DNA from: a virus
Reading direction: 5' to 3' (one strand)
Length of the DNA stretch: 35,848 bases
IMG/VR virus record: IMGVR_UViG_3300017917_002656
Coordinates: 1-35,848 of that record
Part shown: positions 22,929-28,088 of the stretch, piece by piece
Numbering within the stretch: position 1 is the first letter of the stretch
Layout of the letters: each line of letters starts with the position of its first letter
The notes under the pieces: generated by a model
Databases searched by the model: none
What the model was told of the DNA's origin: nothing
The model's input: the letters and a program-made list of their open reading frames with translations, nothing else
Position numbers and translations under genes: made by a program

Positions 22929-23270
22929 ATGAAAAACGAAGCAGTAGCACTCACAAACGAATTGATAACTGAATTAGAACGTGATGGTCTTTTCTCTCAA
23001 GGAGATCCTTTTCTTGAGAAAGAATTCCTCTTTGAGGAATTATTACCAAAAATCGAAAATAATTTAATAACCCAAGGTGAATTTATGCTGACGGACGAAG
23101 AGTTCGAAGAAGCCATCACCGAATCCAGGCGCAAATCAAAAGAAGATGCGCTGAATAGTCTTATCCAAAAAGGAATTGTGGTACCAACAGCCATGGATGA
23201 AAACGACGAAATTTTACTCGGATTACATGAGAATATAAAAAATATGAAAAAAAGTGAGCCAGGTACTTGA
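22929..23270 (+). CDS. Small acidic helical protein upstream of the TROVE gene
   Basis: A 113-residue protein from ATG 22929 (MKNEAVALTNELITELERDG), acidic and helix-rich, with no membrane segment or recognised motif. The start was chosen because the promoter ends just before it. Its stop codon overlaps the TTGACA of the first TROVE promoter, so transcription may continue into the TROVE gene. A functional link with the TROVE protein is possible only by adjacency. Confidence 0.58.
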   Translation: MKNEAVALTNELITELERDGLFSQGDPFLEKEFLFEELLPKIENNLITQGEFMLTDEEFEEAITESRRKSKEDALNSLIQKGIVVPTAMDENDEILLGLHENIKNMKKSEPGT

Positions 23271-23297
23271 CAAAACCAAATTTTGTGCTTACTTTTG
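23266..23297 (+). promoter_or_regulatory. TROVE gene promoter P1
   Basis: CTTG at 23266-23269 (part of TTGACA 23267-23272), a 20-base spacer and TACTTTTG at 23290-23297. The -7 octamer matches the Bacteroidota consensus TAnnTTTG at every fixed position. It overlaps the stop codon of the preceding gene. Confidence 0.7.
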
Positions 23298-23355
23298 TAA
23301 AACTTTTAGCAAATGAATCGGTAAGACGATAACACCAAAAAAATCTGAAAAAAAA

Positions 23356-23387
23356 TTTGGTGGTTTCAAAACTTCTTCTTACTTTTG
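23356..23387 (+). promoter_or_regulatory. TROVE gene promoter P2
   Basis: TTTG at 23356-23359, 20 bases, then TACTTTTG at 23380-23387: a full match to the host primary-sigma consensus. The predicted leader is about 30 bases and A-rich, which favours strong translation in Bacteroidota. Confidence 0.75.
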
Positions 23388-23424
23388 TAATCGAAATTTA
23401 AAAACAGTAAAAAACAAAAATTTT

Positions 23425-24825
23425 ATGAACACACTTGTAAATGCATTACGCACAAGAGACAACCGTACCGAAAATGGTATGATGACAAATTCGTCTACAT
23501 TAAACGCATGTGTAGATTTATTCTTCACAATAGGCGCTATGAGGGGCCAGGATAAGAAGAGGCTGATAAGCAACTTCTCGAAAGCCTTTAATGAGGATGC
23601 ACTTACAGCCATGAGAACTTTATTCTGGGTTCGTGACGTTCGTGGTGGTGCTGGTGAACGCCAGATCTTCCGTGACATCATGACTTATCTGGTGGAAAAC
23701 CACGCAGATGCGCTTGGTAAGAACCTTGCCCATATTCCAGAATATGGTCGTTGGGATGACCTTTTGGTACTTTTCGGTACTCGTTTCGATACCGAAGCTA
23801 AGCAGCTGATCGCTGATGCTTTAACGGCTAAGAACGGTCTGTGCGCTAAGTGGATGCCACGTAAGGGTAAAGAAGCAATCGCTATTGAACGCTTCATGAA
23901 GCTGACACCAAAGCAGTATCGTAAGATGCTTGTGGAGAACACAAAGGTTGTAGAAACCGCTATGTGTCAGAACGAATGGGGTCGTATCACATACGAACAC
24001 GTACCATCGGTAGCGATGTCACGTTATACAAAGGCTTTCGGTAAGCACGATACTGATCGTTTCACTAAGTACAAAACTGGTGACACTAAGGTAAATGCAA
24101 GTGCGGTATATCCATACGATGTCGTAAAGACATTGAGGTTTGGTGATAAGACTATGGCTAACAAGCAGTGGTCAGCTATTCCAAACTACATGGAAAATAA
24201 CAACGAACGTTTACTTCCAGTATGTGACGTGTCGGGCTCAATGAGTTCGCCAGCGGGTTCAAACGCAAACGTTACATGTATGGATGTATGTATCTCGCTT
24301 GGTCTTTACATCTCTGAAAAGAATGAAGGCCCATTCAAGAACGCTTTCATTACGTTCTCCGAAAGACCACAGTTACAGTACCTTAACGGTAACTTGTCTG
24401 ACAGATTCAACCTGCTGTCTCGTGCAGAGTGGGGTTTGTCAACAAACCTTGAGTCTGTATTCAGGGTGGTTCTGAACAAGGCTAAGTCTTCCAACTTGCC
24501 AGAATCAGAAATGCCAACTACAATCCTTATCATGTCGGATATGGAGTTCAACCAGGCTTGCCGTGGTGGAAACGACACAGCTCTTGACATGATTAAGAGA
24601 GAGTATGAAAGCGCTGGTTACACAATGCCAAAGATTGTGTTCTGGAACATCCAGAGCCGTCACGCTGGTAACTACCCAGTTCAGGTAACTGACAAGGGTA
24701 CGGCACTGGTGAGCGGATTCTCTCCAGCGATCTTGAAGTCTCTGTTGACAGGTGAAGACATGTCACCAGTGGCTATCATGAACAAAACAGTACATAGCGC
24801 TCGTTACGAAGCTATCACTGTCTAA
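23425..24825 (+). CDS. TROVE/vWA-domain Ro60-like RNA-binding protein
   Basis: A 466-residue protein with a TROVE-like helical-repeat N-terminal half and a von Willebrand A C-terminal half, as in Ro60 and the DUF2828-type relatives. The segment TLFWVRDVRGGAGERQIFRD (about 65-84) is the most characteristic TROVE/DUF2828 stretch. The vWA metal site begins CDVSGSMSS (Asp268, Ser270, Ser272) and continues with ILIMSDMEF. Ro60 proteins form a ring that holds the ends of misfolded RNAs and binds Y RNAs on its outer face. The gene is driven by two tandem promoters, uses CGT and AAG codons far more than its neighbours (high expression or recent acquisition), and ends five bases before a large predicted RNA domain. 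Confidence 0.88.
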   Translation: MNTLVNALRTRDNRTENGMMTNSSTLNACVDLFFTIGAMRGQDKKRLISNFSKAFNEDALTAMRTLFWVRDVRGGAGERQIFRDIMTYLVENHADALGKNLAHIPEYGRWDDLLVLFGTRFDTEAKQLIADALTAKNGLCAKWMPRKGKEAIAIERFMKLTPKQYRKMLVENTKVVETAMCQNEWGRITYEHVPSVAMSRYTKAFGKHDTDRFTKYKTGDTKVNASAVYPYDVVKTLRFGDKTMANKQWSAIPNYMENNNERLLPVCDVSGSMSSPAGSNANVTCMDVCISLGLYISEKNEGPFKNAFITFSERPQLQYLNGNLSDRFNLLSRAEWGLSTNLESVFRVVLNKAKSSNLPESEMPTTILIMSDMEFNQACRGGNDTALDMIKREYESAGYTMPKIVFWNIQSRHAGNYPVQVTDKGTALVSGFSPAILKSLLTGEDMSPVAIMNKTVHSARYEAITV

Positions 24826-24830
24826 AATAA

Positions 24831-25051
24831 AAAGTAAGAAACCAGGTATTGGGAATACTTGCAGCAAACTGAAACTTAAAAATTCAATTATGCAACAGGA
24901 AAGCCATCGACCCCAGTAAACCGTGATGCTTTATGCTCCGTGTGGGTAGGCACAGATTCTCGGTGACGTGAGTGTCTAAGAAAATTGTCGGGGTTTGTCG
25001 CCTGGGTGACCAAAAGACAGACGATTCCGATGATACCTGGTTTATTACTTT
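24831..25051 (+). ncRNA. Candidate Y-RNA-like structured RNA (R1)
   Basis: A 221-base stretch without a credible reading frame whose ends pair. AAAGTAA (24831-24837) pairs with TTACTTT (25045-25051); one mismatch follows; then AAACCAGGTAT (24839-24849) pairs with ATACCTGGTTT (25033-25043), 18 Watson-Crick pairs in all. Inside, TTGCA/TGCAA (24859-24863, 24891-24895), CGACCCC with GGG-bulge-GTCG (24908-24914, 24991-25000), TGTG/CACA (24941-24944, 24951-24954) and ATTGTCGG with CCGATGAT (24985-24992, 25027-25034) can form a branched core. A long helix joining the two ends is the hallmark of Y RNAs, and bacterial Y RNA genes often lie beside Ro60 genes. It is longer than typical Y RNAs; the Ro60 link is an inference. 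No promoter is seen between it and the TROVE stop, so it is probably processed from that transcript. Confidence 0.7.
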
Positions 25052-25057
25052 AAAATT

Positions 25058-25133
25058 AATGTGAGTGGTTACAGCAATCTTCTACTTCTTTAAAATTGGT
25101 TTAAAATGAAAAAAAAGCCACTCAGTTCACATT
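25058..25133 (+). ncRNA. Second structured element with bulged stem (R2)
   Basis: AATGTGAGTGG (25058-25068) pairs with CCACT (25118-25122) and CACATT (25128-25133), 11 pairs interrupted by a five-base bulge on the 3' side. The 49-base loop starts with a pyrimidine-rich run (CTTCTACTTCTTT) and ends A-rich. It lies six bases after R1 and directly before the terminator, so it may be the 3' domain of one transcript or a second small RNA. A bulged lower stem with a pyrimidine-rich loop is also seen in Y RNAs, but the match is only architectural. Confidence 0.55.
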
Positions 25134-25134
25134 G

Positions 25135-25160
25135 AGGCTGACGTAATGTCAGCCTTTTTT
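25135..25160 (+). terminator. Rho-independent terminator of the TROVE/RNA unit
   Basis: AGGCTGAC (25135-25142) and GTCAGCCT (25148-25155) pair perfectly around a GTAAT loop, followed by six T. This defines the 3' end of the TROVE-R1-R2 transcript. Confidence 0.93.
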
Positions 25161-25235
25161 ATTTATATCATGTCATACTGGCTTAAATTTTGGTTTGGCA
25201 CACAATATGCTTTATTGTGGTAAAAACTAAATTAT

Positions 25236-25607
25236 ATGAACATGATTAGAGCACCATTCAGAACAAACACAATGAACTTCATCAAGATGGTAGATGAATT
25301 AATGGAATCGTATGATACGGAATCATACGCATCTAAAGATCAGGACTTTTCCGTGGAAATCCCTTTACCAGGATTAAGTAAAAATGACATCGAATTGGAA
25401 GTGGTGGGTAAAACATTTACCATCAAAACCAAATTAAAGGAACCAACGGGGTATCTTAAGCGATACCAGGACTACCGCTACTCCTATCAACTAACCGATA
25501 AATACGATCTGAGTAAAGTTGAGGCGGCGATGGTAAATGGTTTATTAACAATAAAAGTACCCTTAAAGGAATATAAAACGGAAAGTTTAAAGATCGAAGT
25601 AAAATAA
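25236..25607 (+). CDS. Small heat shock protein (Hsp20/alpha-crystallin)
   Basis: A 123-residue chaperone of the Hsp20 family that would hold unfolded proteins in an ATP-independent way. The alpha-crystallin domain spans about 35-123: FSVEIPLPGLSKNDIELEV at its start, then VVGKTFTIKTK, YSYQLTDKYDLSKVEA, and MVNGLLTIKVPL, which carries the conserved A-x-x-x-x-GxLxIxxP end. The N-terminal arm is short and the C-terminal I-x-I tail is not clear (KIEV). Phages of other groups also carry Hsp20 genes, where roles in virion assembly have been suggested. The gene stands alone between two terminators. Confidence 0.9.
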   Translation: MNMIRAPFRTNTMNFIKMVDELMESYDTESYASKDQDFSVEIPLPGLSKNDIELEVVGKTFTIKTKLKEPTGYLKRYQDYRYSYQLTDKYDLSKVEAAMVNGLLTIKVPLKEYKTESLKIEVK

Positions 25608-25632
25608 TCGGGAGAAATTCTCCCGATTTTTT
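25606..25632 (+). terminator. Rho-independent terminator after the Hsp20 gene
   Basis: AATCGGGAG (25606-25614) pairs with CTCCCGATT (25620-25628) around AAATT, followed by a T run. The run also contains the TTTG element of the next promoter. Confidence 0.92.
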
Positions 25633-25661
25633 GTTTTTATGGTTTTTATTTTGTAATTTTG
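25630..25661 (+). promoter_or_regulatory. Bacteroidota-type promoter before 25685
   Basis: TTTG at 25630-25633, a 20-base spacer and TAATTTTG at 25654-25661, a full consensus match. It overlaps the T tract of the Hsp20 terminator, a compact end-to-start arrangement. Confidence 0.75.
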
Positions 25662-25684: not shown

Positions 25685-27391
25685 ATGGAGGATATTGTAC
25701 ATTTTAAACAAGTAATGGAAAACTATTACACAAGGCACATGGAGGAGATAACACATAGCGATTGGGATCTATTACCATTCGACGACACACCAACCACTGG
25801 CGTTATGAAGATAAAGGTTACAGAACAACCCACGGAAGTTGTTACTGTGATCGACCAGGATGAGTTCAAAAAAGAGATGAGCAAGAATAACTGTGTTTCT
25901 ACCAACCGCACCACATATGTTGTTTCAGAAGATCTCACCAAAAACACAATTTCATTTAAGTGTTTCAAGATGGGTAAAACTCTCGTACCCGTCAAAAACT
26001 TAAAAAGAAAGAAATTCAAAATAATTGAACATAGTTTATTTTCTTTAACTGTCAACAAAACAACTGGCGAGTTCTCAACGTATTTAAAAAAATATAATCG
26101 TAGAAAATACTATTATACCATAAGAAAAAATATTATAACCGAACAGCTTAAGAACCAAATACGTAATTATCTCTCTGCTGGCAATAATGATTGCTATGGC
26201 GGCGTTCAAAAGTTTTATGAGTTGTTAGGGTATAAACCTCTTACAAGGTATCGGGATTTTATGAATGAATACTTACCACCGATATCTGAAAATTATTACG
26301 ACCCGAGAATAACAGATTCAATATCTTCATTCCCCTTCTTAAATTATCTTTTTAAGTCTGGTATTAAAGATCTAACATATGAGTATCTTCACATGTTTGA
26401 ATTTATATTCAAATTGGATAAGAAAAGGTTTTATAACCGATCCATATTCGATTATATCAGGTATCGCTATGGCCTAAAAAGTCAAGAGTTATACGATTAT
26501 GTTATTAGCGAATTGAAGAAGCGCAACGCAGATGCTTGGCGGAGCCACCCAACGGCTTACCATGAAAGTAAAGCCAAGCATAGTTATCAATTCTATTTAC
26601 CTGGTATAAATGTTGGGTTATTGGAGATGATATCGAAGTATAATATACCACCAAATGAATTTAAAAAATTACCGTTAATAACAACATCTTTTTATTTTGA
26701 TTTTACACGTCAATATAGTTTTGATACTATCCCTTTTTATATACACAAAATGGTCGATTATTACGGGTTTAATATCGTCGATGTGTTACTCTATTTAAGC
26801 GGGGATCATGAAGGGGTATCCACCAGCCAAATTAAGGCACTAATGTATTTCCAAATGTTTGGGGTTAAATTGAAGATTCGAGAACCAAAAGAACTGATAG
26901 ATTGGTACTACACAGGTAGAAAGATATATGATGCGTTATGTATCGCCAGAGGGGCGACAGGTACGTTTCAGTTTAATAACACCTTTGTTATTGGATTGAA
27001 GAAATTGATACCTGATGGTATGAAATTGGTTATCGAACAAGGGGTAAAACCCACAAATGAAACTGTGGGTTGGTCAACACCAGATATAACATATCAAAGA
27101 AAATATGATGATATTTCAGCGGCGGGTAGGATTGTAGTCTTTGATAAGGGCGATAAAACAGTGTTATCGTATAAAATAAGTGATGTGGATGTTAGATGTA
27201 TTCGTAATAAATCAAATGAATTCGGTGAAAAAAAGATCGAAGGTATTCAAGAAATCGTAAATTATATAACCTATTCTCAGGATAATAACAAAATATTCCT
27301 GAAACAAATATACTCGAAACAATATTTTGAAAAAATACTATACGAAGAATTTGGGTTAAAAGCCGATGAATTTCTTGTTTATACCAATTAA
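25685..27391 (+). CDS. Uncharacterised 568-residue protein
   Basis: A 568-residue protein without a recognised family, signal peptide or membrane segment. The first 150 residues are charged and mixed (a basic stretch VKNLKRKKFKIIEHSLF, then repeated Tyr-Lys-Arg clusters at KKYNRRKYYYTIRKN). The middle (160-390) is aromatic and helix-rich, like a helical repeat protein. The C-terminal part (about 430-568) has alternating beta character (KLVIEQGVKPTNETVGWS, then RIVVFDKGDKTVLSYK). Cysteines are scattered. It has its own consensus promoter after the Hsp20 terminator and is followed by the ClpP promoter, which overlaps its end. The context of chaperone and protease genes suggests, but does not show, a role in host takeover or protein turnover. 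Confidence 0.6.
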   Translation: MEDIVHFKQVMENYYTRHMEEITHSDWDLLPFDDTPTTGVMKIKVTEQPTEVVTVIDQDEFKKEMSKNNCVSTNRTTYVVSEDLTKNTISFKCFKMGKTLVPVKNLKRKKFKIIEHSLFSLTVNKTTGEFSTYLKKYNRRKYYYTIRKNIITEQLKNQIRNYLSAGNNDCYGGVQKFYELLGYKPLTRYRDFMNEYLPPISENYYDPRITDSISSFPFLNYLFKSGIKDLTYEYLHMFEFIFKLDKKRFYNRSIFDYIRYRYGLKSQELYDYVISELKKRNADAWRSHPTAYHESKAKHSYQFYLPGINVGLLEMISKYNIPPNEFKKLPLITTSFYFDFTRQYSFDTIPFYIHKMVDYYGFNIVDVLLYLSGDHEGVSTSQIKALMYFQMFGVKLKIREPKELIDWYYTGRKIYDALCIARGATGTFQFNNTFVIGLKKLIPDGMKLVIEQGVKPTNETVGWSTPDITYQRKYDDISAAGRIVVFDKGDKTVLSYKISDVDVRCIRNKSNEFGEKKIEGIQEIVNYITYSQDNNKIFLKQIYSKQYFEKILYEEFGLKADEFLVYTN

Positions 27392-27422: not shown

Positions 27423-28088
27423 ATGAATATCGGAAAGGATTTTAACAACTACGCAACGAAACACATGGGCCTTAACAGCATGACCCTACACAGCTACACA
27501 AGCTCATTAACACCTTACATTATCGAAGAACGTGAGCTTAATGTGGCCTCAATGGACGTATTTTCACGTTTAATGATGGAAAGGATCATTTTCCTTGGAA
27601 CACAAATAGATGACCGTGTTTCAAACATAATTGAGGCTCAATTGCTGTATTTGGAATCAGTGGAGGCTGATAAAGGTATCCAGATCTACGTTAACTCACC
27701 AGGCGGTAGTGTTTACGCTGGTTTAGGTATTTATGATACGATGCAGTACATCAGACCAGAAGTATCGACTTTATGCACTGGATTAGCCGCATCGATGGCT
27801 GCGGTTTTACTTTGCGCTGGCGCTAAAGGTAAAAGATACGCTTTACCTCACTCGAGAGTAATGATTCACCAACCATTGGGTGGTGCTGAGGGCCAGGCGA
27901 CAGATATCGAAATTACGGCGAGAGAAATTGGTAAATTGAAAACCGAATTGTACCAAATTATTTCAAAACACTCTGGCCAGGAATATGACAAAGTTTACAA
28001 AGATTCAGAAAGAGATTACTGGATGATTGCTGCGGAAGCAAAAGATTATGGAATGATTGATGCTGTTCTTGAAAGAAAGAAAAAATAA
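27423..28088 (+). CDS. clpP: ClpP-type serine protease
   Basis: A 221-residue ClpP, complete and probably active. The catalytic Ser124 is in TGLAASMAAVLL and His149 in RVMIHQPLGGAEGQ; the acidic member lies late (in the DSERDYW region). The N-terminal SYTSSLTPYIIEERELNVAS and MDVFSRLMMERIIFLG stretch is very like Bacteroidota ClpP, which suggests acquisition from a host. ClpP forms a barrel that needs a AAA+ unfoldase such as ClpX; none is encoded in this window, so it may assemble with host ClpX or mature phage proteins on its own. The gene has its own promoter and is followed by the fibre genes. Confidence 0.95.
   Translation: MNIGKDFNNYATKHMGLNSMTLHSYTSSLTPYIIEERELNVASMDVFSRLMMERIIFLGTQIDDRVSNIIEAQLLYLESVEADKGIQIYVNSPGGSVYAGLGIYDTMQYIRPEVSTLCTGLAASMAAVLLCAGAKGKRYALPHSRVMIHQPLGGAEGQATDIEITAREIGKLKTELYQIISKHSGQEYDKVYKDSERDYWMIAAEAKDYGMIDAVLERKKK

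Follow-up and report, generated by a model that had tools for sequence, protein, structure and literature searches.

Does a phage carry its own counterpart of the Ro60 protein together with RNAs that such a protein could hold? The question is raised by one locus in a 35.8-kb virus record (the window, meaning the whole stretch of DNA analysed here), for which a sequence-only reading had proposed that a TROVE/vWA gene and a single RNA behind it form a ribonucleoprotein (RNP) of the Ro60–Y RNA type. Ro60 first became known as an autoantigen in humans, and what it does is still under debate.

Pfam places the encoded protein in DUF2828 and DUF7788, with a conserved vWA-type site (DVSGSM) and no sequence match to TROVE (PF05731), and the protein also matches PHROG 850 'RNA-binding protein' at 2e-152. 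An AlphaFold (AF2) model, built from 31 sequences comprising the window protein and its IMG/VR and genome-contig relatives, has a pLDDT of 78 and predicts both the ring of helical repeats and the vWA domain; the best eight matches of this model in a Foldseek search of the PDB were all TROVE/Ro60 structures (E 1e-8 to 7e-6, TM 0.43–0.59, identity 10–18%), including Thermus phage phiLo Ro60, D. radiodurans Rsr, and vertebrate Ro60 (2i91, 1yvp). What had been called a TROVE/vWA gene is thus Ro60-like in its predicted fold, but belongs by Pfam to DUF2828 plus DUF7788 and not to TROVE. Given the pLDDT of 78, the likeness is claimed at fold level only, that is, the protein as modelled has the same fold as TROVE/Ro60 and no close kinship with it. 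Searching the PDB with phmmer returned no Ro60 match for the DUF2828 protein, so that a profile was needed to reach TROVE chains, which it did weakly (E 0.005) and at the vWA site only. The metal site (MIDAS, DxSxS) is present, with D268, S270, S272, T340, and D372 invariant in 34 sequences. The DUF2828 family occurs in 681 of 50,697 phage records, with hosts spanning Escherichia to Mycobacterium, Listeria, and Campylobacter, and at five loci when 85,000 prokaryote genomes were scanned for close relatives; judged from these records, the family is essentially phage-borne.

The gene stops at 24825, five bases before the RNA begins at 24831, and the stretch behind it is free of genes (no plus-strand ORF of at least 60 aa from 24825 to 25236) and contains the perfect terminator with its 9-bp hairpin (25134–25161), in line with the first description. 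The ends of the RNA, 24831–24849 (AAAGTAAGAAACCAGGTAT) and 25033–25051 (ATACCTGGTTTATTACTTT), pair at 18 of 19 positions, with 18 Watson–Crick pairs and one mismatch, and the fold of 235 nt reaches −68 kcal/mol against −51.0 ± 4.5 for shuffled sequences (z = −3.7), a value equalled by none of 200 shuffles. The end pairing, the fold score, and the terminator together confirm the original observation. Its description of the helix was nevertheless incomplete, since the best register comprises 13 pairs including G–U (Table 1) and extends through one mismatch to 24831/25051, and the inner GGAAU/AUUCC stem and the CAGCAA motif had been missed. The 221-nt RNA stands as described, but it is not the only RNA after the gene, as a second RNA of the same class, 63 nt long (25062–25124), had been overlooked. 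Both RNAs are kept in unchanged order in two relatives (L001 and L002). The short window copy, RNA 2, folds no better than shuffles (z = −0.8), and the same holds for the short elements taken singly; a tRNA T-arm was found in none of the window RNA copies. The pattern of the Bacteroidota-type promoter occurs five times in the window against 2.4 expected, statistics that are weak by themselves. Another such promoter-like site (25630–25661), upstream of the next gene (25685), suggests that the DUF2828–RNA–Hsp20 stretch may be a separate unit; the Hsp20-like small heat-shock gene (25236–25607) directly follows the RNAs, and a Clp-type (head maturation) protease is encoded farther downstream (27423–28088).

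Table 1. Features of the DUF2828 locus, in window coordinates.
Feature	Position	Strand	Evidence or remark
Bacteroidota-type promoter-like site, TTTG-N20-TACTTTTG	23356..23387	+	Pattern match, just upstream of the DUF2828 start codon
Ro60-like protein gene (466 aa; DUF2828 + DUF7788)	23425..24825	+	Pfam, PHROG, AlphaFold, Foldseek
Large structured RNA, putative partner RNA 1, ~221 nt	24831..25051	+	Fold z −3.7; homologues in the same place in relatives; outer helix covaries
RNA 1 outer helix, 5′ arm (AAACCAGGTATTG)	24839..24851	+	Partner 25031–25043
RNA 1 inner stem GGAAU	24852..24856	+	Pairs with AUUCC 25024–25028; (nearly) invariant in 17 relatives
RNA 1 CAGCAA motif	24862..24867	+	Five bases after GGAAU
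RNA 1 inner-stem 3′ arm AUUCC, then unpaired GA	25024..25030	+	Conserved G after the stem
RNA 1 outer helix, 3′ arm (TGATACCTGGTTT)	25031..25043	+	Partner 24839–24851
Small putative partner RNA 2, 63 nt + G: TGAGTGG-TTA-CAGCAA...CCACTCA-G	25062..25125	+	Strict element scan
Intrinsic terminator	25134..25161	+	Perfect 9-bp hairpin and U-run, z −5.9; end of the predicted gene-plus-RNA transcript

The RNA signature was first noticed in gene-free stretches flanking DUF2828 in unrelated phages, and the comparison resolves it into a stem of 5–7 bp, 2–5 nt (mostly UUA, about 3 nt), CAGCAA, an A/U-rich stretch forming the loop, the second arm, and an unpaired G. Such elements lie beside DUF2828 in Listeria P100, Felix O1-like phages, KVP40, mycobacteriophage Archie, and Campylobacter, Enterococcus, Bacillus, and other phages. 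When all hexamers were scanned at 83 loci (± 3 kb) for a 7-nt arm exactly 3 nt upstream and its perfect complement 10–150 nt downstream, CAGCAA ranked first of 4096, with a stem at 80 of its 335 occurrences (24%), where the background rate was 1.8%; it had a stem in 53 of the 83 loci, and in antisense at 2 of 163 occurrences. The base directly after the 3′ arm, which was not a criterion of the element search, is G in 60 of 62 nonredundant short elements. A relaxed test, confined to 1.5 kb and requiring this G, recovered 56 of 83 loci in sense and three in antisense, against a mean of 2.7 for other permutations of the hexamer, among which ACAGCA (49) picks up the identical sites one base out of register. 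The elements are mainly 50–70 nt or 105–144 nt long, and 83% of them are less than 500 nt from the DUF2828 gene, with none inside it. Seven long copies, from S13, a Felix O1-like phage, Archie, Klebsiella, Bacillus, and Enterococcus (two), include a perfect tRNA T-arm located some 50 nt into the RNA, and many of the copies of about 120 nt have a T-arm.

Several loci show features of their own. Two annotated tRNA genes of Cronobacter S13 (121 and 113 nt; L081 4896–5138) have an inserted hairpin and then UAUUCAGCA in the anticodon arm or close to it, resembling bacterial tRNA-shaped Y RNAs. Sinorhizobium phage N3 (L093 390–1700) has CAGCAA elements with unusually long arms of 12 nt, scattered as far as 2.6 kb away from DUF2828. 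At L016, L019, and L023, a different RNA of about 250 nt with a UGCAGCAAACAAAA hairpin loop lies 3′ of DUF2828, and its 5′ arm can pair with the local CUCCGUGUCUU or the distal CCCCGCAUCUU, so that alternative folds are possible. The strict CAGCAA element was absent from the DUF2828 loci of DLP6, Erwinia 12, and Munch; in the latter two (L092, Erwinia phage pEa_SNUABM_12, and L094, Salmonella phage Munch), an RNA ligase gene lies two genes upstream of DUF2828.

The association could also be followed from the RNA to the protein. When IMG/VR was searched for the RNA pattern only (inner stem, CAGCAA, 3′ arm), using no protein information, there were 18 matches in which an outer helix of no fewer than 7 bp lay adjacent, and all 18, some of them near-copies of each other, had DUF2828 just upstream. 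The outer-helix sequences diverge widely with their pairing kept, and none of 2000 between-species permutations of the arms reached the observed pairing. A subset of nine related long RNAs (A4), outside which the interior of the window RNA falls, has five helices with two-sided changes at 13 of 26 pairs; the covariation score is 0.331, compared with 0.108 in shuffles (0 of 500) and at most 0.09 in slid controls, a control that favours the structure somewhat because the structure was read from the same sequences. Conservation of the end helix next to the gene in relatives, and its covariation, had been named in advance among the checks that could refute the idea, and both were found. RNAalifold on a MAFFT alignment of 17 long RNAs recovered the inner stem only, because the outer helix was misaligned, and this result was replaced by the anchored arm-swap test and the A4 alignment. 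A pseudoknot considered for the A4 interior was dropped, as nested helices suffice. For the interior of the window RNA, the near-identical L122 was the sole homologue found, and blastn of the RNA against phage records gave chance matches only. The Y RNA match sought in Rfam did not appear, with no match in the window at the gathering score and nothing relevant up to E 10.

In the P100-like Listeria phage CKA15, very abundant noncoding RNAs occur within 2 kb of the DUF2828 gene, purified virions contained the DUF2828 protein, and the authors pointed to Rsr and Y RNAs (PMC12282133). This phage (CKA15_055) resembles the window in the protein family and has three CAGCAA elements ahead of its DUF2828 gene, at about 25,290–25,552, but the study left the RNAs and their motif undefined, and its most abundant RNA, with up to 67% of phage transcripts, comes from a separate region of about 490 nt (PMC12282133). 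The coordinates of that noncoding RNA (about 26,236–26,727; L084 3420–4010), which has no CAGCAA and no Rfam match, rule it out as a CAGCAA RNA. Phage Ro60 homologues and phage Y RNAs were mentioned earlier (PMC7824862, PMC7765460, PMC12363180, and PMC12282133). A full-text literature search for DUF2828 returned plant papers only, and nothing was found that describes an RNA signature particular to the DUF2828 branch, with the full text of Chen et al. 2014 outside this search.

It is unlikely that the elements are cis-acting 3′-UTR or leader structures controlling the DUF2828 messenger, through its stability or by autoregulation, rather than free RNAs. The window RNAs lie in the DUF2828 3′ UTR and have no recognised promoter of their own, which would fit such control, and in the Vibrio phages KVP40 and 1.081.O (L085 3966–4005 and L100 2966–3005) the element spans the DUF2828 start codon with its 3′ arm AAUGUC, which suggests autoregulation of DUF2828 by its own protein in these two phages. 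However, the elements of Listeria, Enterococcus, Campylobacter, and Aeromonas phages occupy gene-free stretches that precede the gene, those of Listeria P100 have their own sigma-A-like promoter, and Felix O1-like copies stand hundreds of bases downstream among tRNAs; furthermore, multiple copies per phage and tRNA-mimic inserts would be unexpected for a simple cis element. Many DUF2828 genes are indeed situated in tRNA clusters, and the Cronobacter S13 copies are annotated as tRNAs, so that the structures might be ascribed to tRNA-array processing or to degenerate tRNA genes linked with DUF2828 by shared location. This explanation is highly improbable, given that the window has two elements yet no tRNA gene and that most copies are 50–70 nt long without a tRNA part, and it is largely refuted by the RNA-only searches, which also recover DUF2828 phages whose RNA has no tRNA module.

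A doubtful but more serious possibility is that the RNAs are diverged canonical Y RNAs, already covered by Chen et al. 2014. That work reportedly surveyed bacterial and phage Y RNAs, and its abstract is said to mention phage species. The architecture is the same, with a docking stem and a permuted tRNA module, UUACAGCAA and UUACUUCGA have UUAC in common, a possible vestige of shared ancestry, and a passage of PMC12282133 cites mycobacteriophages in this connection. Nevertheless, DUF2828 loci consistently have another docking site than TROVE loci do, and no Rfam family matches.

The best reading is a Y-RNA-like RNP of DUF2828 phages that is analogous to the Ro60–Y RNA complex, has its own recognition motif, and is absent from Rfam, and for which we infer binding and function. 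The locus probably encodes a phage RNP working like Ro60 with Y RNAs, in which a protein ring is combined with two docking-element RNAs. The Ro60-like fold, the rank of CAGCAA, the G in 60 of 62 elements, the proximity, the 18 of 18 reciprocal matches, the covariation, the T-arms, the contrast with TROVE loci, and the CKA15 hint count in favour of the RNP, whereas the fold of the short elements, the top CKA15 RNA without CAGCAA, the lack of a T-arm in the window, an interior shared with L122 only, and the loci of DLP6, Erwinia 12, and Munch count against it. What was proposed at the outset therefore survives as an RNP of the Ro60–Y RNA type, through the conserved and covarying end helix, the Ro60-like predicted fold, and the T-arm copies in several phages, but its RNA is no canonical Y RNA, having neither a UACUUC-type site, nor an Rfam match, nor a tRNA module in the window copy.

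A single transcript would contain the DUF2828 message and, in its 3′ untranslated region, the two noncoding RNAs, both of which could be freed by processing. The DUF2828 protein, a ring of helical repeats with a vWA domain according to the model, would bind the CAGCAA docking element, as suggested because the association of gene and RNA is tight and reciprocal. The short RNA might be a gate occupying the ring, and the long RNA might add an effector domain as a tether for a second partner, for example a nuclease or an RNA-repair enzyme; passages of PMC7790460 and PMC12282133 cite the Deinococcus Y RNA as a tether of Rsr to PNPase. This effector domain appears to be a tRNA mimic in many other phages and a different branched domain in the window lineage. 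During infection, the RNP could act on structured RNAs, probably tRNAs or pieces of rRNA, by sorting, protecting, or degrading them, and the tRNA-cluster sites, the RNA ligase in two jumbo phages, and the CKA15 virion protein with its noncoding RNAs provide circumstantial support for RNA handling. We lean toward regarding DUF2828 phages as their own branch of Ro60 RNPs, with a code (stem, 3 nt, CAGCAA, unpaired G) unlike that of bacterial Y RNAs; a Bacteroidota-phage lineage would have exchanged the tRNA-mimic effector for the branched domain, so that docking and effector modules would be swapped independently. Since protein and RNA signature recur next to each other in phages whose hosts differ widely, viruses would carry this RNA–protein machine as a unit.

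A compact and recurrent viral version of Ro60 with its RNAs would be available in well-studied lytic phages, such as Felix O1, KVP40, Listeria P100, and Campylobacter phages, where the role of Ro60 in cell or virus and the recognition of its RNA partners could be tested by gene deletion in ordinary laboratory phage–host pairs. The signature also allows existing phage RNA-seq data to be re-read and could become a new Rfam family. Phage Ro60 homologues and phage Y RNAs were already known; the distinct signature of the DUF2828 branch, as defined from sequence, appears to be new here.

True TROVE loci of bacteria and of phages (Streptomyces, Gordonia, crAss-like, and Caulobacter) were compared, their RNAs being called Y RNAs by a tRNA-like module and a position beside rsr. 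These RNAs have a GAGG...CCUC stem and a UACUUC site, and their tRNA modules are permuted or inserted; no sense-strand CAGCAA element was found at the examined bacterial and phage loci, whereas the bacterial docking site (GAGG...UACUUC / CCUC) is absent from DUF2828 loci, which have CAGCAA elements instead. In the crAss-like phage PhiCrAssBcn2 (L282 3664–4515), a gene-free stretch of 850 nt after the TROVE gene contains several canonical UUACUUC Y-RNA-like elements and tRNA-like parts. Two Y RNA traits are present in the window, namely the helix joining the 5′ and 3′ ends and the position beside a Ro60-like gene. Vertebrate Ro60 with its Y RNAs is similar in the fold match (2i91, 1yvp) and the helix of the RNA ends but shows no RNA sequence similarity, and the conserved site of Y RNAs is absent. 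Canonical TROVE phages (Thermus phage phiLo, 9l5y; Streptomyces, crAss-like, and Caulobacter phages) likewise combine a phage Ro60 with adjacent RNAs, but the Streptomyces, Gordonia, crAss-like, and Caulobacter phage loci have Y RNAs of the bacterial UACUUC type and no sense CAGCAA. Bacterial Ro60/Rsr with its Y RNAs (YrlA, Deinococcus Y RNA) is comparable in the Ro60-like fold, in adjacent small RNAs with a closing helix, in one short and one longer RNA type, and in the tRNA-mimic module of many copies; it differs in having PF05731 TROVE where the phages have DUF2828/DUF7788, a UACUUC-type site where they have CAGCAA and an unpaired G, and a tRNA mimic where the window RNA of about 220 nt has a branched domain.
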